Source: Sphingomonas vulcanisoli
GTDB lineage: Bacteria > Pseudomonadota > Alphaproteobacteria > Sphingomonadales > Sphingomonadaceae
DNA: 64,000 nucleotides
Direction of reading: 5' to 3'
Assembly: GCF_011761305.1 (NCBI RefSeq)
Contig: NZ_JAAOZC010000002.1
Location: forward strand, 306,001-370,000
Shown: one piece after another, positions 13,565 through 31,969 of the stretch
Position numbering within the stretch: the stretch's first letter is position 1
Layout of the letters: each line of letters begins with the position of its first letter
Made by a program: the position numbers and the translations under genes
Notes under the pieces: model-generated
Seen by the model: only the letters and a program-made list of their open reading frames with translations
Database searches by the model: none
Told to the model about the DNA's origin: nothing

Positions 13565-14401
13565 TTAGCCCGCGCGCACTACGACATTATCGATCAGCCG
13601 CGTCGTGCCCAGCCGCGCCGCAAGCGAGATCACCGCATCGCGGTCCACCCGCTCCAATTCCTCCAGTGTCTCGGCATCGGCGACGCTGACATAATCGATC
13701 GTGAAGCGCGGGTTGATTTCGACCCTCTCGCGGATTGCGGCGCGCAGCATCCCGGCATCGCGTTCCCCCTCGGCGAACAGCGCCTCGCCGTAGGAAAGCG
13801 CGCGATAGAGCAAGGGCGCCTCGGCGCGCTCCTCGGCATTGAGGTAGGCATTGCGGCTCGACATGGCGAGGCCATCCGCCTCGCGCACCGTTGGCGCGAC
13901 GACCACCTCCACCGGCATATCGAGATCGCGGACCATGCGGCGCACGACGACGCACTGCTGCGCATCCTTCTGTCCGAAATAGGCGCGGGTCGGCTGGACG
14001 ATGTTGAACAATTTGGCGACCACCGTCGCTACGCCCGCGAAATGGCCGGGCCGCACCGCGCCTTCCAGCGGCTCCGTCACCGGCCCCAGCTCGATCCGGG
14101 TCTGGAAACCGTCCGGATACATGTCCGCCGGCCCCGGCGTGAACACGAGGTCCGCGCCCGCCGCCTCCAGCAGCGCCAGATCGCGCGGCAGATCTCGCGG
14201 GTAGCGGCCGAGGTCCTCATGGGCGGCGAATTGGGTGGGGTTGACGAAGATGCTCACCGCCACCGCGCCGCATTCGGCCTTGGCGCGTTCGACCAGGCTG
14301 ATGTGGCCCGCGTGCAGAAAGCCCATCGTCGGCACCAGCCCGAGCATCGGGAACCGCCCGCGCGCGGCGCGCACCGCGGCGACGGTCTTGACGACCTCCA
14401 T
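13565..14401 (-). CDS. panC: Pantoate--beta-alanine ligase
   Basis: The 278-aa ATP-dependent ligase joins pantoate and beta-alanine. Visible motifs are VPTMGFLHAGHISLVERA (HxGH nucleotide-binding motif), SIFVNPTQFAAHEDLGRYPR, the YFGQKDAQQCVVVRRMVRDL segment and LAMSSRNAYLN (signature-loop region). The gene starts with ATG 14401, which overlaps the panB stop, so panB-panC are translationally coupled. Length and motif order are normal. Confidence 0.96.
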   Translation of the reverse strand: MEVVKTVAAVRAARGRFPMLGLVPTMGFLHAGHISLVERAKAECGAVAVSIFVNPTQFAAHEDLGRYPRDLPRDLALLEAAGADLVFTPGPADMYPDGFQTRIELGPVTEPLEGAVRPGHFAGVATVVAKLFNIVQPTRAYFGQKDAQQCVVVRRMVRDLDMPVEVVVAPTVREADGLAMSSRNAYLNAEERAEAPLLYRALSYGEALFAEGERDAGMLRAAIRERVEINPRFTIDYVSVADAETLEELERVDRDAVISLAARLGTTRLIDNVVVRAG

Positions 14402-15231
14402 CAGCCCTCGCCCAGCGCGCGCTGAAGCTCCTGCGGATCGATCGCCGCATCCTGCTCAGGCTTGGGGAAAACGCCTGCGCGGACATCCTCGGCATAGCGG
14501 CCGAGCGCAGCGGCGATGACCTCGCCCAGCTCGGCATAGCGGCCCGCATGGCGCGGCACTTTGCCCTCGGTCAGCCCGAGCAGATCGTGCCACACCTGCA
14601 CCTGCCCATCGCAGCCCGCGCCCGCGCCGATGCCGATCGTCGGCACCGCCAGCCGTTCGGACACCGCCTTGGCGAGGGCGGCGGGCACCAGCTCCAGCAC
14701 GATCGCGCAGACGCCCGAGGCTTCGAGCAGCAGCGCATCCTCCAGCAACTGCTTCGCCGCCGCCGCCTGCTTGGCCTGGACGCGCAGGCCGATCTGGTGC
14801 TGGGATTGCGGGGTGAAGCCAAGGTGGCCCATCACCGGCACGCCAAGCTCCGTCAGCCGCCGGACGATCGGCGCGATCGCCGCGCCGCCCTCCAGCTTGA
14901 CGCAATGGACGCTGCCCTCGGCCAGCATCCGCCGCGATGCCGTGACGGCATCGGCCTCATTGGCATAAGTGAGGAAGGGCAGATCGCCGACCACCATCGC
15001 ATCGCCGCTGCCCCGCGTCACCGCGGCGGCATGGCGGACCATGTCGTCGAGCGTCACGGGCAGTGTCGTGCCGTGGCCGTGCATCACCATGCCCAGCGAA
15101 TCGCCGACCAGCAGCAGCGGGATGCCCGCGCGCGCCGCGATCCGCGCGGCGCTGTAATCATAAGCGGTCACCATCGGAATGCGCTCGCCCTTCTGCTTCA
15201 TGCGCAGGAGATCGGCGGGCGTGATGGGCAT
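14401..15231 (-). CDS. panB: 3-methyl-2-oxobutanoate hydroxymethyltransferase
   Basis: About 276 aa. It transfers a hydroxymethyl group from methylene-tetrahydrofolate to ketoisovalerate, giving ketopantoate. Conserved features include MVTAYDYSAARIAARAGIP, LVGDSLGMVMHGH (metal and substrate site), VKLEGG, GHLGFTPQS and TIGIGAGAGCDGQVQVWHDLLG. I choose ATG 15231 because GGAG lies 7 bp upstream; a GTG at 15261 would add ten residues. Its promoter side abuts a type-C repeat at 15295-15413. Confidence 0.95.
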   Translation of the reverse strand: MPITPADLLRMKQKGERIPMVTAYDYSAARIAARAGIPLLLVGDSLGMVMHGHGTTLPVTLDDMVRHAAAVTRGSGDAMVVGDLPFLTYANEADAVTASRRMLAEGSVHCVKLEGGAAIAPIVRRLTELGVPVMGHLGFTPQSQHQIGLRVQAKQAAAAKQLLEDALLLEASGVCAIVLELVPAALAKAVSERLAVPTIGIGAGAGCDGQVQVWHDLLGLTEGKVPRHAGRYAELGEVIAAALGRYAEDVRAGVFPKPEQDAAIDPQELQRALGEG

Positions 15232-15294
15232 AGAAGGGCTCCGGGATTGGGACGCCGCCACCTAGGACGGATCGATAGTCATGGCGATGGTCAA

Positions 15295-15413
15295 TCCTCC
15301 CCTGCAAGGGGAGGTGGCATCGCGTCAGCGATGACGGAGGGGTGTCGCCCTCTCGATAGCGGGACACCCCTCCGACGCGCTTCGCGCGCCACCTCCCCTT
15401 CCAGGGGAGGATT
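15295..15413. repeat. Type-C palindromic repeat, copy 1
   Basis: TCCTCCCCTGCAAGGGGAGG at the left and CTCCCCTTCCAGGGGAGGAT at the right enclose inner inverted arms GGAGGGGTGTCGCCC and GGGACACCCCTCC. The element lies between divergent panB and the serine hydrolase gene. It belongs to the same family as 20766, 25739 and 26661, with variants at 29778 and 31970. Confidence 0.85.
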
Positions 15414-15507
15414 TTGAATGGTGCGCAACCTCAGCCCTCCGTCCGCAACCTTGCACCGCGCGCTGCCATAGCCGAAAGACGCGGGCGTCTGAGGGCAGGA
15501 GGCAGGG

Positions 15508-16683
15508 ATGAAGCGGACCGTCTGGATCGGGCTGATCGCGGCCCTGGCGTTGACCGGCGCCGCATCGGCCAAAGAGCCGATCAAGCCCGCCGCCGTGCTC
15601 ACCTGGACGCAGGCGGAGCGCGCCGCCCGCTTCCCGCATATCGATCGCATCTTCCCGCACCAGATCGTGCCTGCCGGTGGCGCCGTCCATCCGCTGCCCA
15701 AGGGCAAGCCGCTGGCCGTGACCCTCGGCAAGGACGGCCATCCCGAGACGCTCGATGCCTTCCTCGCGGCGGACCATGCCGAGGGGCTACTGGTGCTGCA
15801 GGATGGCCGGGTGCGGATCGAACGCTACGGCCCCGATCTGTCGGCGACGGGCCATTGGCCGAGTTTCTCGATCGCCAAATCGGTCACCTCCACGCTCTAC
15901 GGTGCGGCGATCAGGGACGGCTACATCCACAGCCTCGACGACAAGGTGACCGCTTACCTGCCCGAGATGAAGGGCAGCGCTTACGACGATGTCTCGATCC
16001 GCCAATTGCTGACGATGAGCTCGGGTGTGAAGTGGGACGAGGATTATACCAACCCCAAGTCCGATGTCGCGCGGATGTACGGCACGCCCGCCGATCCCGG
16101 TTTCGATCCGATCGTCAGCTATATGCGCAAGCTGCCGCGCGAGGCGCCCGCAGGGACCAAATGGGTCTATAAGACAGGGGAGACCGATCTCGCCGGCGTG
16201 CTGCTGATCCGTGCGACGCATAAGCCGCTGGCCACCTATCTCTCCGAGAAGATCTGGGGCCCTTATGGGATGGAGGCGCCCGCGCTGTGGATGGTCAACG
16301 ATCAGAAGATGTCGCCCGGAGGCTGCTGCCTCTCGGCACGGCTGCGCGATTATGCGCGCTTCGGGCAGTTTATTCTGGAGGGCGGCAAGATCGAGGGCCG
16401 GGAGATACTCGCGCCCGGCTGGCTGGCGGCCGCGACCGCCAAGCAGATCGATAACGGCCGGCCACCCGGCGGCTATGGCTATTTCTGGTGGATCGGCGGG
16501 GACGGCACGTTCAACGGCATCGGCATCTTCGGCCAGATGCTGCACATCGATCCCAGGCGGCATCTGGTGGTGGCGGTGCTGGCGGCGTGGCCGGTCGCCT
16601 ATGATGGCGCGCATGCCGCGGACCATGCCCGGCTGGTGAAGGCGATCGAGGCGGCGATCGATGGCGAGGCGCGTCATCCGTGA
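15508..16683 (+). CDS. Exported serine hydrolase, beta-lactamase/class C-like
   Basis: The 391-aa protein has a signal peptide (MKRTVWIGLIAALALTGAAS-A, cleavage about residue 21) and the S-x-x-K nucleophile in SFSIAKSVTS (Ser121, Lys124). LLTMSSGVKWDEDY is the usual segment after the nucleophile domain, and a tyrosine-motif candidate lies at VYKTGET. The family includes penicillin-binding-protein-like esterases, amidases and D-peptidases; substrate not predictable. RBS AGGAGG precedes ATG 15508. Its 3' end overlaps the next gene by 23 bp, so it is co-transcribed with the importer, where it might process the imported compound. Confidence 0.85.
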   Translation: MKRTVWIGLIAALALTGAASAKEPIKPAAVLTWTQAERAARFPHIDRIFPHQIVPAGGAVHPLPKGKPLAVTLGKDGHPETLDAFLAADHAEGLLVLQDGRVRIERYGPDLSATGHWPSFSIAKSVTSTLYGAAIRDGYIHSLDDKVTAYLPEMKGSAYDDVSIRQLLTMSSGVKWDEDYTNPKSDVARMYGTPADPGFDPIVSYMRKLPREAPAGTKWVYKTGETDLAGVLLIRATHKPLATYLSEKIWGPYGMEAPALWMVNDQKMSPGGCCLSARLRDYARFGQFILEGGKIEGREILAPGWLAAATAKQIDNGRPPGGYGYFWWIGGDGTFNGIGIFGQMLHIDPRRHLVVAVLAAWPVAYDGAHAADHARLVKAIEAAIDGEARHP

Positions 16684-19195
16684 CCTGATCCGCTTGGCCC
16701 TTGCGGGCTTGGCGGTGCTGATCGCTTGCGCCGCGCCTGCGGCGACGCTGCGCGTGGCGATCCCGCTGGAGCCGCTGATCCTCGATCCCACCGCCGGCGC
16801 CGCGATCGCGATCGACGAGGTGACCTATCACAGCATCTTCGAAGGGCTGACAACGCTGGCGGCGGACGGCGGCGTCCATCCCTTGCTGGCGACGGGCTGG
16901 ACGGTATCAGTGGACGGCCTGCGCTACGATTTCCGCCTGCGCCCGGGCGTGCGCTTTCATGATGGCGAGCCGTTCGACGCGCACGCGGTGGTGTTCAGTC
17001 TCCTGCGCGCCATCGCGCCCGGATCGACCAACGCGCAGCGCGATGCGCTCGCCAACATCGCCGGGGTAGAGGCGCTTGGGCCGCTGGACGTTCGCGTCAC
17101 GCTCAAGACGCCCGACGCCGATTTCCTGCGCCTGCTGAGCTATGGCGACGCGGTGATCGTGCCGCCCCAGGCGCATGATCTGGCGACGTGGCCGGTCGGC
17201 ACCGGCCCGTTCCGCTTCGCCGGCTGGAGGCGCGGCAGCAGCGTCACGCTCGTCCGCAATCCGGCCTATTGGGGTGCGCCCGCATATGTCTCTGCGGTGA
17301 GCTTCCGCTTCATCGCCGATCCCAACGCCGCCTTCGCCGCGATGCGCGCGCACGATATCGATCTGTTCCTCGATTATCCCGCGCCCGAGACGCTCGGCCA
17401 GCTCCGCGCGGACCCAAGCCTTCGTATCATATCCGCCCCGTCCGAGAGCGAGGTCATCCTCGCTTTCAACCAGCGCCGCCCCGCGCTCGCCGACATCCGC
17501 GTCCGCCGCGCGATCGCCATGGCGCTGGACCGGCGCGCGATCATCGCTGGTGCGATGTACGGCTATGGTACGCCGATCGGCAGCCACTTTCCGCCGCAGA
17601 GCCCCGATTACCTCGATCTCACCGCGCTTTCCCCGCACGATCCCGCCGCAGCGCGCGCGCTGCTCGCGCAGGCCGGGCACGCCCACGATCTGGCCTTCAC
17701 GCTCGACCTGCCGCCCTCCGCCTATGCGCGGCGCAGCGGCGAGATCGTCGCGGCGGAGTTGGGGGCGATCGGGATAAACGTCACGATCCGCACGCTCGAT
17801 TGGGCGCGGTGGCTCGATCAGGTGCTCAAGCGCCACGATTTCGATCTGACGATCGTCAACCATGCCGAGCCGTTCGATTACGACATTTATAGGCGGCCAG
17901 ACTATTATTTCGGCTACAGGAGCGCGCGGTTCGATACCCTGCTCGCGAGCCTCAAGCACACCACCGATCCCGCGCAACGCCATGCGCTCTTGCAGCAGGT
18001 GCAGCGCGTGCTGGCCGAGGATGCGGCGAACGGCTTTCTTTTCCAGATGCCGCGGCTGGGGGTGGAGGATGCGCGGCTGCACGGCGCCTGGATCAACACG
18101 CCCAATCAGGCGATCGATCTTGCCCAAGCCGAGCTTGCGGGCGGGGCTGGTGAGGGGGATCGCGCCCTTTCGCCGGCCACCCGTCTGCCCGGCATCGTCC
18201 TCGCCGCCTGTCTGACGGCAGGACTGGGCTGGCTGATCTATGCGCTCGGCTGGCGCTTCGTGCTGCGTCGGCTCACTGTGCTGCTGCTGACCTTACTGGC
18301 CGCGAGCGTCCTGATCTTCGCGCTGCTCCAGATCGTGCCCGGCGATCCCGCGCTGGCGATGATGGGGCCGGACGCTTCGCCCGCGGCGGTGGCGGCGCTG
18401 CACGATCAGCTCGGGCTCGGCGGTTTCGCGACGGCGCGTTACGGGCATTGGCTCGGCGGGATGCTGCGCGGCGATTTCGGGACGAGCTATGCCTATCGCG
18501 TGCCCGTCGGGCCGATCCTCGCCGAGCGGCTGGCGCTGTCGCTGCCGCTGGCCTTGCTGGCGACCTTGCTCTCGATCCTGATCGGCGTGCCCGCGGGCGT
18601 GCTGGCGGCGCGGCAGCGCGGCAGCTGGCTGGATCGCGGGATCGGCGCGGTGGCGAAAGTCGGAATCGCGGTGCCGAGCTTCTGGCTGGCGCTGCTGCTG
18701 ATCCTGCTGTTCGCGGTGCGGCTGGGGTGCTTTGCGGCGGGAGGTTTTCCCGGCTGGGATGCGGGGATCGGCGCGGGACTGAAAGCGCTGGTGCTGCCGA
18801 TCGTGGCGCTGGGCCTGCCGCAGGCGGCGATCCTGGCGCGGGTGATGCGCGCGGCCTTGCTCGATCAACTCGGTGAGGAGCATCTCCGCGCCGCCCGCGC
18901 ACGCGGCCTGTCGCGCGATGCGGCGCTGTGGCGGCACGCTTTCCCCAACGCGCTGGGGCCGGTGCTGACCGTGCTCGGGCTGCAGATCCCGTTCCTCGTC
19001 GCGGGCGCGGCGATCATCGAGGCGATCTTCTTCCTGCCCGGGCTCGGCCGGCTGACGATCCAGGCGATCGGGCAGCGCGATCTGATCATGGTGCAGGGCG
19101 CGGCGATGCTGTTCGTGACGATCACGGTGGTCTCCAGCTTCGCGATCGATATCGCCCAGGCCGCGCGCGATCCGCGTTTGAGGGATGCGCGATGA
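16661..19195 (+). CDS. Fused family-5 substrate-binding protein and DppB-type permease
   Basis: This 844-aa protein joins two normally separate subunits of an Opp/Dpp/nickel-type ABC importer. Residues 1-28 form a signal or anchor segment. About 30-485 are a family-5 solute-binding protein (EGLTTLAADGGVHPLLATGW; GTGPFRFAGWRRGSSVTLVR; FNQRRPALADIRVRRAIAMA). After a linker with a hydrophobic helix near 510-530 comes a DppB-like permease (RRLTVLLLTLLAASVLIFAL; QIVPGDPALAMMGPDAS) with the EAA loop EEHLRAARARGLSRDAALWR near 736-755. No frameshift or stop interrupts it. The binding domain would be tethered to the permease on the periplasmic side. Ligand unknown; metallophore or peptide is plausible given the downstream Zur. 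Confidence 0.88.
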   Translation: MARRVIRDLIRLALAGLAVLIACAAPAATLRVAIPLEPLILDPTAGAAIAIDEVTYHSIFEGLTTLAADGGVHPLLATGWTVSVDGLRYDFRLRPGVRFHDGEPFDAHAVVFSLLRAIAPGSTNAQRDALANIAGVEALGPLDVRVTLKTPDADFLRLLSYGDAVIVPPQAHDLATWPVGTGPFRFAGWRRGSSVTLVRNPAYWGAPAYVSAVSFRFIADPNAAFAAMRAHDIDLFLDYPAPETLGQLRADPSLRIISAPSESEVILAFNQRRPALADIRVRRAIAMALDRRAIIAGAMYGYGTPIGSHFPPQSPDYLDLTALSPHDPAAARALLAQAGHAHDLAFTLDLPPSAYARRSGEIVAAELGAIGINVTIRTLDWARWLDQVLKRHDFDLTIVNHAEPFDYDIYRRPDYYFGYRSARFDTLLASLKHTTDPAQRHALLQQVQRVLAEDAANGFLFQMPRLGVEDARLHGAWINTPNQAIDLAQAELAGGAGEGDRALSPATRLPGIVLAACLTAGLGWLIYALGWRFVLRRLTVLLLTLLAASVLIFALLQIVPGDPALAMMGPDASPAAVAALHDQLGLGGFATARYGHWLGGMLRGDFGTSYAYRVPVGPILAERLALSLPLALLATLLSILIGVPAGVLAARQRGSWLDRGIGAVAKVGIAVPSFWLALLLILLFAVRLGCFAAGGFPGWDAGIGAGLKALVLPIVALGLPQAAILARVMRAALLDQLGEEHLRAARARGLSRDAALWRHAFPNALGPVLTVLGLQIPFLVAGAAIIEAIFFLPGLGRLTIQAIGQRDLIMVQGAAMLFVTITVVSSFAIDIAQAARDPRLRDAR

Positions 19196-19974
19196 GGACG
19201 GGCGCGGCGATCGTCGGGCTGTTGATCGCGGTGGCGCTGCTGTCGCTGGTCTGGACGCCGCACGATCCTGCCGCGATCGACGTCGCCGTGCGGCTGGCGC
19301 CCGCGTCGGCGGCGCATTGGCTGGGCACCGATCAACTTGGGCGGGATGTGGCAGCGATGCTGATGGCCGGCGCGCGGGTTTCGCTCGGCGTATCGATCGC
19401 GGCGATCGGCGGCGCGTTGCTGATCGGCATTCCGATCGGGCTGCTGGCGGCGGCGCGGGGCGGATGGACCGATGCGCTGCTGATGCGCAGCGCCGATATG
19501 CTCTTCGCCTTCCCGGCCTTGCTGATCGCCGTGCTGCTCGCGGCGACGCTCGGCCCCGGTGCGGGCAATGCCGCGCTGGCGATCGGGCTGTTCAACGTAC
19601 CAGTGTTCGCGCGGGTGACGCGCGGCGCGGCGCGATCCTTGTGGCAGCGGGACTTCATTGCAGCGGCGCGGCTGGCAGGACGAGGCCCGCTTGCCATTTC
19701 CGCCGCGCATATCCTGCCCAACATCCTCGGGACAATCGCCGTGCAGGCGACGATCCAGCTCAGCCTCGCGCTGATCGCCGAGGCGGGGCTGTCCTATGTT
19801 GGCCTCGGCGTGCAGCCGCCAGCCCCAAGCTGGGGCCGGATGCTGGAGGAGGGGCAGACCTTGCTCGGCATCGCGCCGCGCCTTGCGATCCTGCCGGGGC
19901 TGGCGATCCTGATCGCGGTGCTCGGCTTCAGTTTGCTCGGCGACGGACTGCGCGATCGGCTGGAGCGACGATGA
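19192..19974 (+). CDS. DppC-type ABC permease
   Basis: The 260-aa inner-membrane permease overlaps the fused gene by 4 bp (GATGAG). It has five to six hydrophobic helices, HWLGTDQLGRDVAAMLMAGA (typical of DppC/OppC), and an EAA-like loop RDFIAAARLAGRGPLAISAA for ATPase contact. SYVGLGVQPPAPSWGRMLEE is the conserved C-terminal signature. It would heterodimerise with the permease half of the upstream fusion. It is slightly short because the N-terminal cytoplasmic arm is reduced to a few residues (MRTGAAIVGLL). Confidence 0.92.
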   Translation: MRTGAAIVGLLIAVALLSLVWTPHDPAAIDVAVRLAPASAAHWLGTDQLGRDVAAMLMAGARVSLGVSIAAIGGALLIGIPIGLLAAARGGWTDALLMRSADMLFAFPALLIAVLLAATLGPGAGNAALAIGLFNVPVFARVTRGAARSLWQRDFIAAARLAGRGPLAISAAHILPNILGTIAVQATIQLSLALIAEAGLSYVGLGVQPPAPSWGRMLEEGQTLLGIAPRLAILPGLAILIAVLGFSLLGDGLRDRLERR

Positions 19975-21677
19975 GCCTCCTCGATCTCCGCAACCTCTCC
20001 GTCGATTACAGTGGGCGGCGTGCGCTCGACGACGTGACGCTGGCGATCCTGCCCGGCGAGATCCTTGGCATCGTCGGCGCGAGCGGATCGGGCAAATCGA
20101 CGCTGGCGCTCGCCGCGATCGGCCTGTTGCCCGACGATGCCGTGGTGAGCGGCACTGTCGCCTTCGATGGCGTGCCGATCGACACGCTTTCGGAACGGCA
20201 GCGCGATGCGCGGCGCGGCGCGGATATCGGCCTGATCTTCCAGGATCCCGCTGCCGCGCTCGATCCGCTGATGACGATCGGCGCGCAGGTCGCCGAAGCG
20301 ATCCGCGCGCATCATCGCATCAGCCGCCGCGCCGTGCTGGGCCAAGCCGCCGAGACGCTGGCGCGCTGCGGCCTCGATCCCGACGAAGCCCCGCCCGGCC
20401 GCTATCCGCACCAACTTTCGGGTGGCCAGCGGCAGCGCGCCGCCATCGCCATCGCCATCGCCGCTCGACCCCGGCTGCTGATCGCCGACGAGCCCGCCAC
20501 CGCGCTGGATGCGGTGACGCAGGCGCACATCCTCGCTTTGCTGCGCCGTCTGGTCGCCGAGGAGGGCATGGCGCTGGTGCTGATCAGCCATGATCTCGCG
20601 CTGGTCGCGGGTGTTGCCGATCGCCTCGCCGTGATGGCGGAGGGCCGCATTGTGGAGCAGGCGCCGACCGCAGCATTGCTCGCCAATCCCGCGAGCGAAT
20701 ATGCCCGCACGCTGATCGCCGCCGCCACCGCCGACATCGGACGCCACATTGATGGCGATGACGGTTCCTCCCCTGCGAGGGGAGGTGGCGCGCGCAGCGC
20801 GTCGGAGGGGTATCGCCCTATCGAAGGGGCGACACCCCTCCTTCATCCCTGCGGGCTGCGACCTCCCCTTGCAGGGAAGGACTTTGAAGGGCGATCCGTG
20901 CCGGAGACTTTGCTCGAAGCCGATCGGCTCAGCTTCGCATATCCGGGATTGGGGCCGGCGGTTTCGGACGCGAGCTTCACGATTCCGCGCGGCGCGATCG
21001 TCGCGCTGATCGGCGCGAGCGGATCGGGCAAGACCAGCCTGCTCCGCCTGATCCTCGGCCTCGCCACCCCGCGCACGGGCGAAGTGCGGATCGGCGGCCG
21101 ATCGCTGACCCACGCGAAGGGCCGCAGCCTCCGCGACCTGCGCGTCCAGGTGCAGGGCGTGTTCCAGCACCCGCGCGCGAGCTTCGATCCGCGCTGGCGG
21201 GTGCGCGATATCATCGCCGAGCCGCTTGCCCTGCGCGATCAGGCCGAACCCGGCCTCATCGAACGCGCAGTCGCCCGCGTCGGGCTTGCGCCCCACCTGC
21301 TCGATCGGCTTCCCCACCAGCTTTCCGGCGGCGAGCGCCAGCGGGTCGCCATCGCGCGCGCCATCGTGATCGAGCCGAAGCTGGTGGTGCTCGATGAGGC
21401 GACATCGGCGCTCGATCCGATCAGCCACGCCGCAATCTTCGCGCTGATCGCGCGGCTGGCCGATGAACAAGGCATCGCCTTCCTGATCGCCACGCACGAT
21501 CTGGTGATGATGCGCGGCTTCGCCGATCGGTTGATCGTGATGGAAGCGGGCCGGATCGTCGAACAGGGTGCCACCGCGCAGTTGCTCGTCGACCCCACGC
21601 ACCCCAGTCTGCGCGCGCTGATCGCCGCGACTCCGGCGCTGGCCTTCGATCTTGTGCCGGGGGCTGTCGCCTCTTAA
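19971..21677 (+). CDS. Tandem ABC ATPase (DppD-DppF fusion) with repeat-derived linker
   Basis: The 568-aa protein has two complete nucleotide-binding domains. Domain 1 (about 1-255) has Walker A GASGSGKST, Q-loop IFQDPAAALDP, signature LSGGQRQR and Walker B LLIADEP. Domain 2 (about 305-560) has GASGSGKTS, FQHPRASFDPRW, LSGGERQR and VVLDEATSALD. They correspond to OppD/DppD and OppF/DppF. The 39 or so residues between them (SSPARGGGARSASEGYRPIE and onward to PPLAGKD) are the in-frame translation of a type-C palindromic repeat, with no stop. ATG 19971 overlaps the permease stop. It energises the importer encoded upstream. Confidence 0.92.
   Translation: MSLLDLRNLSVDYSGRRALDDVTLAILPGEILGIVGASGSGKSTLALAAIGLLPDDAVVSGTVAFDGVPIDTLSERQRDARRGADIGLIFQDPAAALDPLMTIGAQVAEAIRAHHRISRRAVLGQAAETLARCGLDPDEAPPGRYPHQLSGGQRQRAAIAIAIAARPRLLIADEPATALDAVTQAHILALLRRLVAEEGMALVLISHDLALVAGVADRLAVMAEGRIVEQAPTAALLANPASEYARTLIAAATADIGRHIDGDDGSSPARGGGARSASEGYRPIEGATPLLHPCGLRPPLAGKDFEGRSVPETLLEADRLSFAYPGLGPAVSDASFTIPRGAIVALIGASGSGKTSLLRLILGLATPRTGEVRIGGRSLTHAKGRSLRDLRVQVQGVFQHPRASFDPRWRVRDIIAEPLALRDQAEPGLIERAVARVGLAPHLLDRLPHQLSGGERQRVAIARAIVIEPKLVVLDEATSALDPISHAAIFALIARLADEQGIAFLIATHDLVMMRGFADRLIVMEAGRIVEQGATAQLLVDPTHPSLRALIAATPALAFDLVPGAVAS
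20766..20881. repeat. Type-C palindromic repeat, copy 2, inside the ABC ATPase gene
   Basis: It starts TCCTCCCCTGCGAGGGGAGG, has inner arms GGAGGGGTATCGCCC and GGCGACACCCCTCC, and ends CTCCCCTTGCAGGGAAGGA. It is the same element found between genes at 15295, 25739 and 26661, but here it is wholly inside an open reading frame and is read through in frame between two ATPase domains. Confidence 0.88.
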
Positions 21678-21688
21678 CTTCACGAGCG

Positions 21689-22159
21689 ATGGCCCACATC
21701 CATGCCCTGCACGATGGCGACGCGCTCGACGGCGCGGCGGAGCGCGCGCTGATCGCGGCGGGGGAGCAATGGACGCCGATGCGCGCGCGGGTGTTCGAGG
21801 CGCTTCGCCAATCGGCCAAGCCCGCCTCGGCCTATGACATCGCCGAACTGATCTCGAAGCGCGAGGACCGCCGCGTTCCGGCCAACAGCATCTATCGCAT
21901 CCTCGATCTGTTCGTGGAGGCGAATCTGGCGCACCGGATCGAAAGCGCCAACGCCTATGTCGTCAACCGCCACCCCGCCTGCCGCCACGATTGCCTCTTC
22001 CTGATCTGCGATCAGTGCGGACAGGTGCTGCACCTCGACGACGATAAGGCGACCGAGGTGTTGCGCAATGGGGCGATCGCGTCCGGCTTCCTGCCGCGCC
22101 GCCCGATCCTCGAGATGCGCGGATTATGCGCCGATTGCGGAGCAGACGCGACGAGCTGA
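21689..22159 (+). CDS. zur: Fur-family regulator, Zur-like
   Basis: The 156-aa regulator has a winged helix (TPMRARVFEALRQSAKPASA; VPANSIYRILDLFVEANLAH) and a C-terminal metal domain with CDQC (Cys107, Cys110) and CADC (Cys147, Cys150), the structural zinc site of Fur/Zur proteins. ACRHDCLFLICDQCG resembles Zur rather than Fur or Irr. It starts 11 bp after the ABC ATPase stop, so it is likely co-transcribed with the importer. Zur represses zinc-uptake genes when zinc is replete. The Zur versus Fur assignment is moderately secure from motif pattern and context. Confidence 0.8.
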   Translation: MAHIHALHDGDALDGAAERALIAAGEQWTPMRARVFEALRQSAKPASAYDIAELISKREDRRVPANSIYRILDLFVEANLAHRIESANAYVVNRHPACRHDCLFLICDQCGQVLHLDDDKATEVLRNGAIASGFLPRRPILEMRGLCADCGADATS

Positions 22160-22173
22160 TTGCGCGCCATCGC

Positions 22174-22440
22174 TCATAACCCCGCCACCTTCCGCAGCGC
22201 CGCGTTGATCCGCGTCTGCCAGCCCGATCCCTGACCCTTGAAGTGGGCAAGGACGTCTCGATCGAGACGGATCGTGGTCGCCTCCTTGTCACCGCCGGGC
22301 GGCCGACCACGCGGACGCCTGGTAAGCGCTGCGACAGCATGGGGCGGCAGGATTTCGCTAGCGGGACGCGAGCGGCGTTCCGTCTCTTCTGTCCATTCGG
22401 GGTTCTCGTCGAACCCCTCAGGCAGCTCTACTTTACCCAT
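22174..22440 (-). CDS. brnA: BrnA family antitoxin
   Basis: The 88-aa protein has the BrnA pattern: a proline/arginine-rich RPRGRPPGGDKEATTIRLD followed by the ribbon-helix-helix segment TTIRLDRDVLAHFKGQGSGW and QTRINAALRKVAGL. BrnA neutralises BrnT and autorepresses the operon as a DNA-binding complex. Its start overlaps the brnT stop region by 8 bp. The pair sits as a minus-strand island between zur and the TonB receptor gene. Confidence 0.9.
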   Translation of the reverse strand: MGKVELPEGFDENPEWTEETERRSRPASEILPPHAVAALTRRPRGRPPGGDKEATTIRLDRDVLAHFKGQGSGWQTRINAALRKVAGL

Positions 22441-22690
22441 AGCGACGCATCTCCTTTTCGCGCGCCCGACGGAAGCTAATCAGGTGGATGCCGTCCGCCA
22501 TAACCGTGAAGACCAGGCAATGGCCCTTGCCATCGATCCGACCGCGCGCCTGATAGCGAATCTCGCCGTAATCGATCCGATTATCGATCGAGACGTGCGG
22601 CTCGCCGTCGAAGCTCTCGAAGTCGCTTAGCCATAGACCGTGCTTCTCGAAATTCGATCGATCCTTGGCCGGATCAAAGCTGATCTTCAT
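22433..22690 (-). CDS. brnT: BrnT family toxin
   Basis: The 85-aa protein begins KISFDPAKDRSNFEKHGLWL, the characteristic BrnT start (FDPxKxxxNxxKHG), and contains RIDYGEIRYQARGRIDGKGH and LISFRRAREKEMRRY. BrnT is a RelE-fold ribonuclease that inhibits translation. Toxin precedes antitoxin, the usual BrnTA order. An imperfect inverted repeat immediately upstream of the ATG is a candidate operator. The family's key basic and aromatic residues look intact, so the toxin is probably functional. Confidence 0.9.
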   Translation of the reverse strand: MKISFDPAKDRSNFEKHGLWLSDFESFDGEPHVSIDNRIDYGEIRYQARGRIDGKGHCLVFTVMADGIHLISFRRAREKEMRRYG

Positions 22691-22691
22691 A

Positions 22692-22712
22692 TATTCTGTT
22701 ACTACAAGAATA
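22692..22712. promoter_or_regulatory. Inverted repeat before brnT, candidate BrnA operator
   Basis: TATTCT (22692-22697) and AGAATA (22707-22712) are separated by 9 bp, and the inner bases TGT/ACA extend the symmetry. The site is 2 bp upstream of the brnT start on the minus strand, where an autoregulatory complex would block transcription. Binding is inferred from position only. Confidence 0.4.
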
Positions 22713-22798
22713 CATAGACATCAATATCGGATTGGCGCGAATTGTGGCGTTATTGCCGTTGGCTTCATCCGCCGTTCATGCGCACACCGACACATGCA

Positions 22799-22813
22799 TG
22801 ATACATTGTATCA
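22799..22813. promoter_or_regulatory. Perfect 15-bp palindrome before TonB receptor, candidate Zur box
   Basis: TGATACA-T-TGTATCA is a perfect 7-1-7 palindrome ending 19 bp before the receptor ATG. Its AT-rich form and odd symmetry resemble operators of the Fur/Zur family, and a Zur-like gene lies about 640 bp upstream. It stands out in GC-rich surroundings. Assignment to Zur is inference. Confidence 0.5.
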
Positions 22814-22831
22814 CGCTGGTTCGGAGCAACG

Positions 22832-24961
22832 ATGCGCGCCCTTTTAGTCTCTTCGGTTGCCGCCCTTGCCTTGATCGCCAGCGCCGCCGACGCCGCGCCC
22901 GCCGATGCCGGTGAGGCCGATCAGCCCGCCTCCCCGGAAATCGTCGTCACCGCCCGCAAGCTGGATGACGCGCGCGCCGCGATTTCGCCGGCGCTCGGCG
23001 CGACTAGCTATGGCGTCGACAATGCCACGATCCAGGCGCTGCCCGGCGGCGACAATCAGCAGTTCAACCAGATCATCCTGCAGCTGCCCGGCGTGGTGCA
23101 GGATGGCAATGGCCAGTTCCACGTCCGCGACGATCACAACAATCTGCAATATCGCATCAACGGCACGATCCTGCCCGAAGGCATCGCCGTGTTCGGCCAG
23201 ACGCTCAGCCCGCGCCTGATCGAGAGTTTCAACCTGCTCACCGGCGCCCTGCCCGCGCAATATGGCCTGCGCTCGGCAGGCATCATCGATATCACCACAA
23301 AGAGCGGCTTCAAGAATGGCGGCACCGTTTCGCTCTACGGCGGCAGCCGCGGCATGATCGAACCGAGCGTCGAATATGGCGGATCGACCGGATCGACCAA
23401 TTACTTCGTATCCGGCGACTATCGGCACAGCCACCTCGGCATCGAGAGCGTCGATGGCTCCGCCAATCCGCTGCATGACCGCACCGATCAGGGCCAGGCC
23501 TTCGCCTATCTCGATCACATCATCGATGACGATAACCGCGTCAGCTTCGTCGGCGGCTATGCCAACCAGCATTTCGAGATCCCCAATCCGCGCGGGCTGA
23601 GCGCGGCGGCGATCGGGCCGGGCTATTCGGTCGGCGGGGTCAGCGATTTCCTCAGTGATAGTCTGGATGAGCGGCAGGTCGAACAGACTGGCTTCGGCCA
23701 GCTCGCCCTTCTCCACCACAGCGACACGCTGACCGTGCAAAGCTCGCTGTTCGCGCGCTATGCGACGCTCAACTATTATCCCGATGTGCTCGGCGAATTG
23801 CTGTTCAACGGCCAGGCGCAGCGCGCGGTGAAGAAGGATCTCACCATCGGCGCGCAGGTCGATGCCTCCTACAGAGTGAGCCCGGCGCACACGATCCGCG
23901 GCGGCGTGCTGATCACCCGCGATCACGGCACCAGCAGCACCACGACCAGCGTCTTCCCGGTGGATGCCGCCGGCAATCAGACCGGCCAGCCGATCAGCGT
24001 TGCGGAAGCCGGCGGCAACACCGAGATGACGTACAGCGTCTATCTGCAGGACGAATGGAAGCTGGCGCACAGCCTGACCTTCAATTTCGGCGGCCGTTTC
24101 GATCATTATGACGGCTATCGATCGCAGCAGATGTTTTCCCCACGCGCCAATCTCGTCTGGCAGCCGGGCGCGTTCACCACGCTCCACATCGGCTATGCGC
24201 GCTATTTCTCGCCGCCGCCGTTCGAGCTGGTCGGCAGCACGACGATCGCGCGCTACGTCGGCACCAGCGGCGCGGCCGCGGGCACCGACAACACCACGCC
24301 TTTCGCCGAGAAGCAGCATTATTTCGACGCGGGCGCCGAGCAGAAGCTGGGCGACAGCGGCGTCAGCCTGGGCGTCGATGCCTATTACCGGATCAGCCGC
24401 AACCTGATCGACGAGGGCCAGTTCGGCGCGCCGATCATCCTGACGCCGTTCAATTACAAATATGGGCGGATCAAGGGCATTGAGTTCAACGTCAATTACA
24501 CCAAGGGCCCGTGGCTGGCCTATGCCAATTTCTCGGCCGCGCAAGCGAAGGGCAGGGATATCGTCTCAAGCCAGTTCAGCTTCGATCCCGCCGATCTCGC
24601 CTATATCCGCAACCATTACATCTATCTGGATCATGATCAGACCTACACGGGATCGGCAGGCGTCTCCTACCGCTTCCGCGACGGCACGCTCTCGGGGCTC
24701 AAGCTGGGCAGCGACATGCTCTACGGATCGGGCCTGCGCCGCGACGGCATTGTGCCGAACGGCGACAAGCTGCCCGGCTATGCGCAGTTCAACCTTGCGG
24801 CGAGCTACCGCATCGCGGCGGCGGGGGTGGAGGTGCGGCTCGATGTGGTGAACGTCGGCGATCACAAATATGAGATTCGGGACGGCACCGGCGTCGGCGT
24901 CGGCGCGCCGCAATATGGCGCGCGGCGCGGCGTCTTCGTGGGTGTCAGCAAGGATATCTGA
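22832..24961 (+). CDS. TonB-dependent outer membrane receptor
   Basis: The 709-aa protein has a signal peptide (MRALLVSSVAALALIASAADA), a TonB box (EIVVTA, about residues 35-40) and a plug domain (NQIILQLPGVVQDGNGQFHV; RLIESFNLLTGALPAQYGLR). A beta-barrel follows with alternating aromatic strands and a C-terminal segment PQYGARRGVFVGVSKDI. Energised by TonB-ExbBD, it would import a scarce ligand across the outer membrane. RBS GGAG lies 6-8 bp before ATG 22832, with a perfect palindrome just upstream. With zur and the importer nearby, zinc or a metal chelate is a reasonable ligand, but no zinc-binding His cluster is obvious. Confidence 0.9.
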   Translation: MRALLVSSVAALALIASAADAAPADAGEADQPASPEIVVTARKLDDARAAISPALGATSYGVDNATIQALPGGDNQQFNQIILQLPGVVQDGNGQFHVRDDHNNLQYRINGTILPEGIAVFGQTLSPRLIESFNLLTGALPAQYGLRSAGIIDITTKSGFKNGGTVSLYGGSRGMIEPSVEYGGSTGSTNYFVSGDYRHSHLGIESVDGSANPLHDRTDQGQAFAYLDHIIDDDNRVSFVGGYANQHFEIPNPRGLSAAAIGPGYSVGGVSDFLSDSLDERQVEQTGFGQLALLHHSDTLTVQSSLFARYATLNYYPDVLGELLFNGQAQRAVKKDLTIGAQVDASYRVSPAHTIRGGVLITRDHGTSSTTTSVFPVDAAGNQTGQPISVAEAGGNTEMTYSVYLQDEWKLAHSLTFNFGGRFDHYDGYRSQQMFSPRANLVWQPGAFTTLHIGYARYFSPPPFELVGSTTIARYVGTSGAAAGTDNTTPFAEKQHYFDAGAEQKLGDSGVSLGVDAYYRISRNLIDEGQFGAPIILTPFNYKYGRIKGIEFNVNYTKGPWLAYANFSAAQAKGRDIVSSQFSFDPADLAYIRNHYIYLDHDQTYTGSAGVSYRFRDGTLSGLKLGSDMLYGSGLRRDGIVPNGDKLPGYAQFNLAASYRIAAAGVEVRLDVVNVGDHKYEIRDGTGVGVGAPQYGARRGVFVGVSKDI

Positions 24962-24983
24962 TCGCGGCGGACATAACCCACCC

Positions 24984-25071
24984 CCGTTCGTGCTGAGCCT
25001 GTCGAAGCACCGTTCTGCTTCTTTTGACGTGGAAAGAAGAACAGCCCTTCGACAAGCTCAGGGCGAACGGT
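24984..25071. repeat. Type-B palindromic repeat, copy 2
   Basis: CCGTTCGTGCTGAGCCTGTC and the inverted GACAAGCTCAGGGCGAACGG enclose an AT-richer GAAGAACAG centre. It fills the gap between the convergent TonB receptor and aspartic protease genes. Confidence 0.85.
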
Positions 25072-25092
25072 GGAAGGGATGTGCCCGCATGA

Positions 25093-25656
25093 CTAATTCA
25101 GCTCCAGCCGATCGCCCTTGATGCGCACCGATCCAAGCTTGGTGAGCATATTCTGGCCGAGCAATGAGACGCCCAGCCCCTGCCGCACCACCGCCGCGCG
25201 CACATCGTGCAGCTCGCGCCCGGCGAGCTTGACGCTGGCGAGGTGGGTCCAGGCCATTGCGGTGCTGCCGCCGACGGTCTCGACCTTCTCGCCGAAGCGA
25301 TCGGCCTCGGGGGTGAGGCCCAACGTGCGGGCGTCATCCGCGCGCAGCACGGTGTAGCTGGCGCCGGTATCGACCAGGAAGCGCAAATGATGGCCGTTGA
25401 CCTCCGCGCCGATGTAGAACAGCCCATCCGAAGCGCGCGCCACCTTGCTGCGGCCGGACGCATCGCTCGCCGCCGCAGCGGCCTGATCATCGACTGTCTG
25501 GCCTGCGCCGATGCCCGCGCTCGCCATCGCCGCGCTGGGGGCCGGGGCCTGCGTCACGCTGTCGTCGGCGGAGTAATGCGAGCCCATCATTCCGGCGACG
25601 CAGCCGATCGCCAGCGTGATCGCGGGGAGGGGGGCACTGGAAAGCAAGCTACTCAT
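25093..25656 (-). CDS. Retropepsin-like clan AA aspartic protease
   Basis: The 187-aa protein has an N-terminal hydrophobic anchor (APLPAITLAIGCVAGMMG), an Ala-rich linker of about 45 residues, and a retropepsin fold with the catalytic FLVDTGASYTVL motif and flap region ETVGGSTAMAW. The C-terminal SLLGQNMLTKLGSVRI matches bacterial TIGR02281-type enzymes, which are periplasm-facing single-pass proteases of unclear substrate. It stands alone between two repeats, convergent with the TonB receptor. Confidence 0.88.
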   Translation of the reverse strand: MSSLLSSAPLPAITLAIGCVAGMMGSHYSADDSVTQAPAPSAAMASAGIGAGQTVDDQAAAAASDASGRSKVARASDGLFYIGAEVNGHHLRFLVDTGASYTVLRADDARTLGLTPEADRFGEKVETVGGSTAMAWTHLASVKLAGRELHDVRAAVVRQGLGVSLLGQNMLTKLGSVRIKGDRLELN

Positions 25657-25738
25657 AAAGCAGGCTAATGCCCGGACGTTTGCAACGATCGGTGATTCGA
25701 TTCGGCTAATGCGCTGTTAGGGTTGTTTTAGGATTTGA

Positions 25739-25857
25739 TCCTCCCCTGGAAGGGGAGGTGGCACGCGCAGCGTGACGGAGGGGTGTCGCCCTTTCGAGAG
25801 CGGGACACCCCTCCACCATGCTGCGCATGGTCCCCCTCCCCTTTCAGGGGAGGATTT
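25739..25857. repeat. Type-C palindromic repeat, copy 3
   Basis: The element starts TCCTCCCCTGGAAGGGGAGG and ends CTCCCCTTTCAGGGGAGGAT, with inner arms GGAGGGGTGTCGCCC and GGGACACCCCTCC. Its right border (AGGATTTAG) overlaps the GFA gene stop codon TAA on the minus strand. Confidence 0.85.
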
Positions 25858-26215
25858 AGGCTACCGCGCCCGCGTGATTCTTGCCGTCGAATTTGACGAT
25901 GCGCGCCTCGACGCCGTGCCGCTCGTCCAGGCAGCGCAGATTGATGCTAATGCCCTTGGGGTGCGAGCGCGGCTTGTAGAAGCTTTTGATCCCGCACTGG
26001 CTGCAGAAGATGTGCTGCGCGGCGCCGGTGCCGAAGCGGTACGTCGTCGTCTCCCGCCGCCCCTCGATCAGCCTGAAATCGTCATCGGGCACGATCAGGT
26101 GAAGGTAACCGGTCATGCTGCAGATCGAACAATCGCAATCCAAGACTTCCGGCGATTCGGGCACATCCGCCTCAAACCGCACCAGCCCACAATGGCACCC
26201 GCCTTCCACTTTCAT
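25856..26215 (-). CDS. GFA/CENP-V family zinc protein
   Basis: The 119-aa protein starts MKVEGGCHCGLVRFEADVPE and has the GFA cysteine pattern: CHC near residues 7-9, CDCSIC near 26-31 and CSQCGIKSFY near 72-81. These bind two zinc ions. The family includes glutathione-dependent formaldehyde-activating enzyme-like proteins; this member's reaction is not known. A longer frame to 26350 runs into ssrA and is unlikely. The stop codon lies at the outer edge of a type-C repeat. Confidence 0.85.
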   Translation of the reverse strand: MKVEGGCHCGLVRFEADVPESPEVLDCDCSICSMTGYLHLIVPDDDFRLIEGRRETTTYRFGTGAAQHIFCSQCGIKSFYKPRSHPKGISINLRCLDERHGVEARIVKFDGKNHAGAVA

Positions 26216-26230
26216 GGAGCACTTTCTTAA

Positions 26231-26620
26231 ATGGGGTCCCCGCAAAGTACCACTTTGTGGGGTAACTGTGTGGGGAGCTTCTGTTGCTCGGTGCTCCCCG
26301 TACCGCCGGAATCCGATTCTGTTGCCCGGTTCGGCCCGAACCGCGTTCAAGCTTTGTAATCTAAGCCGTTAGGCCGTGATTACGCAGCAATCGCGAGCGC
26401 CTCGTTATCGTTGGCACTTGTGGTTTTGAGACGTTTTACGGGTGTTCTCGTCCCGGGCAAAAACAAGGTGCCTGTTCACACGTCGATCCTAGTTCGGCCC
26501 CGTCAAAGCCTGCCTTGAAAGACAGGTTTTGGTGGAGCCGCCGGGTACCGCCCCCGGGTCCGCTGCGCCAAACACAACATGCACTTTATCACCATAGCCG
26601 GCCGAAGCCGGCGGGGAGGG
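26231..26620 (-). ncRNA. ssrA: Two-piece (permuted) tmRNA
   Basis: The minus strand encodes the tag ANDNEALAIAA plus TAA at 26415-26380, the alphaproteobacterial proteolysis tag. The coding piece begins GGGGCCGAACTAGGATCGAC at 26502, the permuted tmRNA 5' motif. The acceptor piece ends GGCGGCTCCACCA at 26530, pairing GGGGCC with GGCTCC to form the acceptor stem, and contains a T-arm-like GGGGGCGGTACCCG. About 27 nt (26503-26529) between the pieces form the excised spacer. The gene order acceptor-then-coding shows the circular permutation. An 11-bp hairpin (26238-26262) lies at the 3' end. The outer boundaries are approximate. tmRNA rescues stalled ribosomes. Confidence 0.95.
26238..26262 (-). 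terminator. Stem-loop at ssrA 3' end
   Basis: CCCCGCAAAGT and ACTTTGTGGGG form an 11-bp stem around ACC. It is either the last helix of the tmRNA coding piece or a terminator; no long U tract follows on the minus strand. Confidence 0.45.
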
Positions 26621-26660
26621 ATATAGGGGTTCGACGAGGCGGGGGGAAGGGGCCGCTTCA

Positions 26661-26780
26661 TCCTCCCCTGCAAGGGGAGGTGGCATCGCGCAGCGATGAC
26701 GGAGGGGTGTCACCCTTTCGAGAGCGGGATACCCCTCCACCAGCCTGCGGCTGGCCCCCCTCGCCTTCCAGGGGAGGATT
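26661..26780. repeat. Type-C palindromic repeat, copy 4
   Basis: It starts TCCTCCCCTGCAAGGGGAGG, has inner arms GGAGGGGTGTCACCC and GGGATACCCCTCC, and ends CCTTCCAGGGGAGGAT. It lies between mscL and ssrA, and its right edge carries the mscL stop codon. Confidence 0.85.
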
Positions 26781-27232
26781 TAGGCCGAGCGCGCTTTCAA
26801 CTCATCCCTTATCTCGCGTAGCAGGATCACCTCCGCCGTATCCGCCGCCGGGGCCGCGGTGGCCTCGGCTTTCTCCCGCTCCAGCGCCGCGGTCGCCTTG
26901 CTCACCGCGCGGACCATCAGGAAGATGACGAAGGCGACGATCAGGAAATCCATCAGCTGGGTGACGAACTGGCCATAGCCGATCAGCGGCACACCGGCCT
27001 TCTTGAGATCGGCATAGCTGGTCAGCGATCCTTTGAAATCGGCTGGGATCGGGCCGAGGCGGACGAAGTGGCTGGAGAAATCGAGCCCGCCGGTGACCTT
27101 GCCGATGATCGGCATGATGATGTCGTCGGTCAGGCTGGTGACGATCTTGCCGAACGCCGCGCCGATGATCACCGCCACCGCGAGATCGAGGACGTTGCCG
27201 CGGGCGATGAACGCCCGAAAATCCTTGAGCAT
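26780..27232 (-). CDS. mscL: Large-conductance mechanosensitive channel
   Basis: The 150-aa channel opens under membrane tension to protect against hypo-osmotic shock. It begins MLKDFRAFIARGNVLDLAVA and continues into VIIGAAFGKIVTSLTDDIIM, the diagnostic TM1 with its Gly/Ala-rich gate. TM2 is FVTQLMDFLIVAFVIFLMV, and the C-terminal charged helix ends LLREIRDELKARSA. AAGGAGG precedes ATG 27232. It is divergent from lemA. The stop codon TAA lies at the border of a type-C repeat. Length is at the long end for the family. Confidence 0.96.
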   Translation of the reverse strand: MLKDFRAFIARGNVLDLAVAVIIGAAFGKIVTSLTDDIIMPIIGKVTGGLDFSSHFVRLGPIPADFKGSLTSYADLKKAGVPLIGYGQFVTQLMDFLIVAFVIFLMVRAVSKATAALEREKAEATAAPAADTAEVILLREIRDELKARSA

Positions 27233-27349
27233 AAGCGATGCCTCCTTTTGCCCAGCTTGTTCGTTACGCCGCCGCCGATCAACCCCGATTGCGCGCGCCG
27301 TATTAGGCGAGTAAGACGGCGGGTGACGCAACCAACAGAGGCTTCCTCC

Positions 27350-27934
27350 ATGTCGTTCGCCCGTTTCCGCATCGCTTTGCTCGCTCCCCTCGCCGCGCTG
27401 TCGCTGGCCGGGTGCGGATTGAACTCGATCCCGACCGCCGAGGAGAATGCCAAGGCCAAGTGGGCCGATGTGCAGAATCAGTATCAGCGGCGCTCCGATT
27501 TGATCCCCAATCTGGTCTCGACCGTGAAGGCCGCGGGCGCGCAGGAGAAGGACATCCTCGTCGAGGTGACGCAGGCGCGCGCCGGCGCGCAGGCTGTCCA
27601 GCTTTCGGGCGATGATCTCAAGGATCCCGCCAAGGTCGCCAATTATGAGCGCGCGCAGGGCGCGGTGACGGTATCGCTGCAGAAGCTGCAGGAGGCCTAT
27701 CCCGAGCTCAAGAGCCAGGGCAATTACACGACGCTGATGAGCCAGCTCGAAGGCACCGAGAACCGGATCACCATCGCGCGCAGCGATTACAATGAAGCGG
27801 TGCAGGCCTATAATACGCGCATCCGCACCTTCCCCGACGCGATCGGCGCCAAGATCTTCTACGGCGCCAAGCCGATGCAGACCTTCCAGGCGACCACCCC
27901 GGGCTCCGAGACCGCGCCGGCGGTCAAATTCTAA
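27350..27934 (+). CDS. lemA: LemA family lipoprotein
   Basis: The 194-aa protein has a lipoprotein signal (MSFARFRIALLAPLAALSLA-GC). The LemA helical bundle follows, with WADVQNQYQRRSDLIPNLVS, VANYERAQGAVTVSLQKLQE, LEGTENRITIARSDYNEAVQ and YNTRIRTFPDAIGA, all conserved in the family. LemA proteins are envelope proteins of unclear role that commonly precede TPM-domain genes, as here. The ATG at 27350 is needed for the signal peptide. Confidence 0.95.
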   Translation: MSFARFRIALLAPLAALSLAGCGLNSIPTAEENAKAKWADVQNQYQRRSDLIPNLVSTVKAAGAQEKDILVEVTQARAGAQAVQLSGDDLKDPAKVANYERAQGAVTVSLQKLQEAYPELKSQGNYTTLMSQLEGTENRITIARSDYNEAVQAYNTRIRTFPDAIGAKIFYGAKPMQTFQATTPGSETAPAVKF

Positions 27935-27993
27935 AGCGCCTTCGTTCGGCATTTGTTCTTGACTTTTCGGCGCGTTTCTGCTAGGAAATTGTA

Positions 27994-29094: not shown

Positions 29095-29762
29095 TGCAGA
29101 TCAAGCCCAGCGATGCGGCGCATGCCGCCGCCGCGATCAAGGCCGCCGAGGCGCGCACCGATGGCGAGGTGCAGGCCTTCGTCGCGGCCGCATCGGATAG
29201 CTATGCCGAGGTGCCGCTGCATTATGCGCTGCTCGTGGCGCTGCTGCCGCTGGCGCTGTCGGCGGCGTTTCCCATCGTGCTGGAGCGGGCCGCGCGGCTG
29301 GTCCATCCCGGTTGGGAAGAGCCGTCGCAGCGGTTCCTGCTGACCGTGCTGCTGGTGGTGACGGCCCTCGTCTTCCTCGCCGGTCGCTACCTGTTCGGGC
29401 TCCAGGCGGTGCGGATGGCGCTGACGCCCGCGGCCACCAAGCATCGCCGCGTCCACCGCCGCGCGCTGATGCTGTTCCGCGCCGCGATCGAGCAGCGCAC
29501 CGCGAGCACCACCGGCGTCCTGCTCTATCTCAGCCTCGCCGAGCATCGCGCCGAGATCGTCGCCGATGCCGCGATTCATTCCAGGGTCGACGATAGCGAA
29601 TGGGGCGAGGCGATGGCCGTGCTGCTGACGCATGTGAAGGACGATCGTCCCGGCGACGGCATCGCCGCCGCGATCGAGAAGATCGGCGACGTCCTCGAAG
29701 CCCATTTACCCCGCACCGGCACCGATCCCAACGAACTCCCCGATCGCCTGATTTTGTTGTGA
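29094..29762 (+). CDS. TPM-domain membrane protein
   Basis: About 222 aa from MQIKPSDAAHAAAAIKAAEA. An N-terminal TPM-like helix (EARTDGEVQAFVAAASD) is followed by two membrane spans (ALLVALLPLALSAAFPIVL; FLLTVLLVVTALVFLAGRYL) and a C-terminal TPM half (STTGVLLYLSLAEHRAEIVA; VKDDRPGDGIAAAIEKIGD). It overlaps the upstream TPM gene by one base, and the pair plus lemA form one operon. A GTG one codon earlier is an alternative start. Role unknown; probably envelope-associated. Confidence 0.82.
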   Translation: MQIKPSDAAHAAAAIKAAEARTDGEVQAFVAAASDSYAEVPLHYALLVALLPLALSAAFPIVLERAARLVHPGWEEPSQRFLLTVLLVVTALVFLAGRYLFGLQAVRMALTPAATKHRRVHRRALMLFRAAIEQRTASTTGVLLYLSLAEHRAEIVADAAIHSRVDDSEWGEAMAVLLTHVKDDRPGDGIAAAIEKIGDVLEAHLPRTGTDPNELPDRLILL

Positions 29763-29777
29763 GCGGCCTAACCCAAA

Positions 29778-29907
29778 TCCTCCCCCGCCAGGGGGAGGTG
29801 GGGCCGAAGGCCTCGGAGGGGGAGGACGGCGGCGGGCTGTCAACGGTAACCCGATCCGCCCCCTCCGTCAGGCTGACGCCTGCCACCTCCCCCTGGCGGG
29901 GGAGGAT
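29778..29907. repeat. Type-C variant palindromic repeat
   Basis: TCCTCCCCCGCCAGGGGGAG and the matching CTCCCCCTGGCGGGGGAGGA enclose inner GGAGGGGGAGGAC and GCCCCCTCC arms. Its right border GGGGGAGGAT serves as the ribosome-binding site of the NUDIX gene that starts at 29911. Confidence 0.8.
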
Positions 29908-29910
29908 GAG

Positions 29911-30572: not shown

Positions 30573-30576
30573 TTGC

Positions 30577-30858: not shown

Positions 30859-30905
30859 GTCCCTTCTCCCTCGCTTCACCGCGCCATGCGGGCGCATCGC
30901 GGGAG

Positions 30906-30927: not shown

Positions 30928-30957
30928 GTCGGGGTGAAGATCGCCAAATCGCGCGGC

Positions 30958-31968: not shown

Positions 31969-31969
31969 A

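Follow-up and report, generated by a model that had tools for sequence, protein, structure and literature searches.

The tandem ABC ATPase gene at 19971-21677 of the window (the whole stretch of 64,000 nucleotides of Sphingomonas vulcanisoli DNA that was analysed) carries a 116-bp palindromic repeat between its two nucleotide-binding domains, and the question raised by this locus is whether the repeat created the fusion or landed in a linker that already existed. In many Opp/Dpp systems each of the two ATPases is a protein of its own. An earlier note on this DNA had left both options standing; our analysis very probably identifies the repeat as a copy of a dispersed, hairpin-forming, REP/MITE-like sphingomonad repeat that was inserted into the pre-existing linker between the nucleotide-binding domains of a fused Opp/Nik-type ATPase. 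The features of the window on which the analysis was based are as follows.

16661-19195, plus strand: a single ORF of 844 aa for the substrate-binding protein and the first permease, upstream of the ATPase (ORF list, Pfam).
18928-19974, plus strand: ORF with the second permease, BPD_transp_1 in residues 167-348 (ORF list, Pfam).
19971-21677, plus strand: tandem (fused) ABC ATPase CDS, 568 aa, Opp/Dpp/Nik type (ORF list, Pfam, NCBIfam, orthologues).
19971-20732, plus strand: first nucleotide-binding domain, residues 1-254, motifs present (Pfam, motif check).
20766-20881, plus strand: type-C palindromic repeat, residues 266-304 (the last one partly), read as SSPARGGGARSASEGYRPIEGATPLLHPCGLRPPLAGK.
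20898-20900, plus strand: in-frame GTG with GAAGGG six bases upstream, a candidate internal start of a separate second ATPase (sequence).
20904-21674, plus strand: second nucleotide-binding domain, motifs present (Pfam, motif check).
15295-15411, minus strand: intergenic copy of the repeat (blastn and ORF list).
25739-25854, plus strand: intergenic copy of the repeat (blastn and ORF list).
26661-26778, minus strand: intergenic copy of the repeat, after the tmRNA (blastn and ORF list).

ORF 19971-21677 runs through the 116 bp of the element without a stop codon. Pfam placed an ABC_tran stretch on either side of the repeat in the 568-aa protein, and Walker A, Q-loop, signature, Walker B and H-loop were complete in both halves, which bears out the claims of the earlier note that the palindrome is read in frame and that two complete nucleotide-binding domains flank it. 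The open frame alone is unremarkable, because the copy in the ABC gene is open in four of six frames, and in 72 of the 85 copies one or more frames have an upstream start codon and no stop within the element. Whole-protein NCBIfam scores were above the NikD and NikE cut-offs and below the DppD/DppF-type cut-offs among the matches listed; since each score sums two domains, NikD/NikE and DppD/DppF are both only candidate names for the ATPase. A Fur-family regulator is located directly after the transporter (21689-22159), and this neighbour, together with NikD/NikE-like ATPases, might indicate that the transporter takes up a metal or metallophore and not peptides. A long ORF with a permease-like end precedes the ATPase in two other species as well, with 843 aa in Sphingomonas aracearum (L078) and 1033 codons from stop to stop in Novosphingobium nitrogenifigens (L043).

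Copies of the repeat at 15295-15411, 25739-25854 and 26661-26778 were 79-87% identical to 20766-20881 by blastn, and all three were confirmed as intergenic, as had been stated. A covariance model built from 33 copies was run against the genome (3.27 Mb, 17 contigs) and located the element at at least 85 distinct places, counted from the best 150 strand-matches; an earlier blast search of the genome gave 79 strand-matches from the best 40 candidates. Over the 85 copies the termini were sharp (A followed by TCCTCCCC at one end, GGGGAGGA followed by T at the other) and formed terminal inverted repeats, a MITE feature; the outer bases of the 20766-20881 copy were T and C, unlike this consensus. 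No clear target-site duplication was found over the 85 copies, the largest excess being 10 observed against 5.15 expected (2-mers, one offset). The element was present in 11 plasmid records, all from Sphingomonas or Sphingobium, and in 27 of 119 sampled family genomes (E <= 1e-12, strict filters). Folded as single-stranded RNA, the segment 20760-20890 reached -92 kcal/mol (z -8.7 against 200 shuffles), and the element formed one long compound hairpin. In an Rfam scan of 14000-33000, no match at the element attained the gathering score of its family; weak miRNA-like matches below the cut-off were taken as chance.

Further palindromes were seen alongside this family. A related one at 31966-32097, absent from the list in the earlier note, consists of two 58-nt arms with 78% complementarity, and 47 nt of it match the copy at 25739 at 83%. 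A second dispersed family (CTGAGC..GTCGAAG) is present in the window at 6698-6787, 24983-25072, 34585-34672 and 44807-44892, and its type also occurs in frame in linkers of methylmalonyl-CoA mutase (MCM) of relatives. In two copies near contig ends (L005 and L011, on contigs C2 and C12 of G000) one terminus of the repeat was swapped for a sequence that the two seem to share, which may be an insertion sequence with the palindrome as its target.

The origin of the fusion was addressed with orthologues. At 1e-85 the ATPase was found in three of 397 family genomes (G000, G006 and G319; best three candidates per genome), and fused forms are also present in S. aracearum (51%) and N. nitrogenifigens (44%). 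In G006, a 300-contig assembly of the same genus, the same fused gene was read in one frame with two ABC_tran stretches (Pfam) and a repeat-free linker, ARDTVPAAGKTEEREP; its first and second halves are 74% and 72% identical to those of the window ATPase. Between the halves G006 reads ...AAAARDTVPAAGKTEEREPLLEVEHLSFAYP... where the window reads ...AATADIGRHIDGDDG-(repeat)-DFEGRSVPETLLEADRLSFAYP..., and the parsed linkers measure 16 and 60 residues, respectively. The covariance model gave no copy in the ATPase loci of G006 and G319, with L001 as positive control at 116 bits. By alignment and model search of the loci, none of 20 other fused orthologues, from within and outside the Alphaproteobacteria, carried the repeat; in one of them (L073) a different, repeat-free sequence makes the linker long. 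That the repeat joined two formerly separate genes, similar to dppD and dppF, could be argued from the separate ATPases of many Opp/Dpp systems and from the position of the element exactly between both domains, but the repeat-free fused ORFs of G006 and of all 20 aligned orthologues speak against it, as does a regex test in which 62 of 80 related loci gave a single tandem ORF (it left 18 undecided), and we regard this origin as extremely unlikely. The alignment of orthologues proposed in the earlier note thus did not support its first option and favoured the second, landing in an existing linker. The close empty site comes from one genome only (G006), so the edges of the insertion are not fixed; as 116 is not a multiple of 3, one has to postulate either a net insert of another length or small indels that came later.

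The open frame might be only a remnant in a gene that has been decaying since the insertion, and this explanation was weighed using substitution rates. It would fit the expectation that repeat insertion in genes is usually harmful, and the pairwise dN/dS, at about 0.37, is not particularly low. The ABC motifs are, however, complete in both halves, and dN/dS between the window and G006 was nearly equal before and after the repeat (0.377 and 0.360), like the repeat-free pair G006/S. aracearum (0.314 and 0.416); for the window against S. aracearum it was 0.361 and 0.406. Decay since the insertion is therefore considered very unlikely. In these comparisons the half after the repeat gave no sign of relaxed constraint, although pairwise dN/dS cannot date constraint relative to the insertion.

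The search for other in-frame copies suggested in the earlier note was performed on ORFs that extend 60 codons or more to either side of the element, which covers copies away from gene ends. At 15 of the 85 copies, 17 such ORFs run through the element. Pfam was applied to 15 of the 17: domains were present on both sides of the repeat in two (the ATPase and MCM), only downstream in three (histidine kinase, cytochrome b561 and DUF455) and nowhere in ten; in the three, the repeat probably lies upstream of the true start. Another 51 copies, taken from the best 50 loci of G002, G006, G033 and G071, yielded nine read-through ORFs, one of which, the MCM of G002, had coding-type base composition on both sides and was the sole one of the nine to be scanned with Pfam. 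A LysR gene under a plasmid copy was rejected as an in-frame case, as the copy only overlaps the 3' end of the gene. As bacterial genomes are mostly coding, insertions in genes have presumably been strongly removed. The second interdomain case recovered by this search is given here.

G000, contig C5, 87633-87750: in-frame copy of the repeat in MCM, between the mutase barrel and the B12 domain (L152).

The repeat in the barrel/B12 linker was in frame and free of stops in G000, G002 and G006, all of the same genus, and the linker was short and repeat-free in G001, G004 and G005 (e.g. EGAKGKANLLGLAVE); the search for it in G003 gave no match. Between G000 and G002 the two MCM flanks were under strong constraint (dN 0.034 against dS 0.396, and dN 0.090 against dS 0.663), and the repeat part was much less constrained than the flanks (dN 0.173 against dS 0.262).

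The MCM case also bears on whether the ATPase gene gives one protein of about 60 kDa or two. The hairpin, very stable at -92 kcal/mol, might stall or end translation, or the mRNA might be cut there, and the second half could be separately started at GTG 20898 with its upstream GAAGGG. Two products of this kind appear unlikely to us, since the linker is stop-free, no terminator (or promoter) was found in 19900-21800, and the MCM repeat was kept in frame without stops in three genomes of one genus, as expected if it is read through. The AlphaFold2 model of the ATPase (mean pLDDT 86.5) placed two domains with confidence, and its confidence was low at residues 262-278 and 303-328. The insert was not disordered over its whole length in this model, which counts against our reading: blocks 281-290 and 291-300 had mean pLDDT of 77 and 88, with a strand at 291-297, and the strand that truly opens the second domain lies within the low-confidence residues 303-328. 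We think that the strand inside the insert is an artefact and judged the model unreliable for the linker, because MAFFT set the repeat-encoded TPLLHPCGL against PLLEVxGL of the orthologues.

Across the family, the MCM linker region was matched in 217 of 249 genomes, with an unbroken match across the insert position in at least 38 rows, a number to be read with the fact that other inserts could split the match. The best 30 matches were all read, and types were assigned from searches and by eye; 28 of these 30 linkers contained an in-frame palindromic repeat of one of four or five sequence types. Fourteen had the CCTCCCC palindrome, of the same family as 20766-20881, with a model match at the linker in all 14. 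The CTGAGCNTGTCGAAG inverted repeat, of which the window also has dispersed copies (e.g. 24983-25072), was present in seven (six by pattern, L221 by eye with mismatches), and L219 contained parts of both types. L210 and L217 had a CCCCAC/TCCCCTTC type, which may be a distant form of the CCTCCCC type because both gave weak model matches (27 and 28 bits). The TCCCCGCGCAGGCGGGGA type of L212, L218 and L220, a putative dispersed repeat, was found at those three loci alone among 260, and the GCGAAGTCGAG type of L214 resembles, by eye, the window repeats at 10334 and 13479. L223 and L226 had no clear repeat (hairpin z 0.4 and 1.0); hairpin z of the other parsed linkers of the set ranged from -2.9 to -12.1 (mononucleotide shuffles). 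A 31st linker, L252, among the 38 unbroken rows, was of the CTGAGC type.

On a quick MCM tree made without the linker (41 rows, 12 of 38 inner branches weakly supported, sampling that favours filled linkers), the insert state needed 20 changes and the distinction of empty and filled linkers needed four. G058 and G133, a close pair in one genus, had different insert types. Outside the family, a search of other alphaproteobacteria matched 31 of 385 genomes at the threshold used, and no insert was present in the seven linkers read. The CCTCCCC inserts of different genera may go back to one old insertion with later replacement or to many insertions. A broader reading would be that the domain linkers of certain sphingomonad proteins, most of all MCM, repeatedly receive unrelated palindromes by in-frame insertion and exchange, and that these are perhaps retained for a benefit of the RNA hairpin or of the Pro/Gly-rich peptide, such as a translational pause between folding domains, and are not merely tolerated; we hold it to be rather doubtful.

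For the ATPase, we propose that the insertion into the linker kept the frame and that the protein tolerates the approximately 40 extra residues because the linker between the domains would be flexible. Selection would have purged nearly all other genic insertions, so that the survivors are located between genes or between domains, and the MCM linkers may reflect the same process, repeated with several repeat types.

Tandem ATPases of the Opp family, such as the GsiA and YejF types, contain two ABC ATPases per chain, and the ATPase of the window resembles these types (names from the NCBIfam matches) in this respect; it differs from its fused relatives by the repeat in the linker, which all 20 aligned relatives lack. 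Both S. alaskensis and E. litoralis belong to the sphingomonads. GTAG/CGTC-tagged REPs inside ORFs of many species, including these two ('E. lithoralis' there), were described in 2013 in the part of PMC3733652 used here, where tolerance of REPs by flexible linkers or loops was already suggested; a different lineage from Rickettsia, as put forward in the earlier note, is thus not new in itself. The same source gives CGTC REPs a CGTC head, a stem of 8-9 bp, a loop of 4-5 nt and a CCA tail. The inner hairpin CGTCAGCCCTGCGGGCTGCCA of our element has, by eye and in the consensus, a CGTC head and a CCA-like tail, but its stem of about 5 bp and loop of 3 nt (by eye) differ, and the compound palindrome of 116 bp that contains it has CCTCCCC as its outer arms. 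The word 'methylmalonyl' is absent from the main text of PMC3733652, and no earlier account of the ABC or MCM case was found in open-licence literature, covered mostly by titles and abstract openings. Enterobacterial RU-1, RU-2 and RU-3 elements have intragenic copies (PMC2759123, as excerpted) and are similar as short inverted repeats joined in frame to genes; the present element belongs to another lineage and has no clear target-site duplication.

A further comparison is with the Rickettsia palindromic elements, reviewed with other in-frame MITEs in PMC10969869: dispersed palindromes of about 150 bp that are in frame in genes which probably still function (extracts of PMC10969869 and PMC3733652). 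The likeness drawn in the earlier note is fair in the sense that the present element works like them, being a dispersed palindrome of many copies (at least 85, with the hairpin energy and z given above) that lies in frame in two apparently intact genes, and the MCM case backs it. It does not extend to frequency or product: unlike the Rickettsia elements as presented in those extracts of PMC10969869, the present element is seldom in frame between domains (2 of 85 copies), and its ABC copy (SSPARGGGARSASEG...) and MCM copy (PPLQGEGDQPHAGGG...), being read in different frames, do not encode a common peptide. In-frame palindromic repeats are thus a known phenomenon from the Rickettsia elements and, as far as excerpted, the intragenic REPs of PMC3733652, to which the ABC and MCM genes add further cases. 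The ATPase is a clear example of the incorporation of a palindromic repeat into a multidomain protein, one for which a relative has an empty site, and the evidence indicates that the repeat did not make the fusion itself. Within one bacterial family, the MCM linker has received a natural series of in-frame insertions at a single site, which makes it testable how much weight linker sequence carries and whether such insertions are neutral or selected, and its repeated filling by several repeat types is the part worth following.
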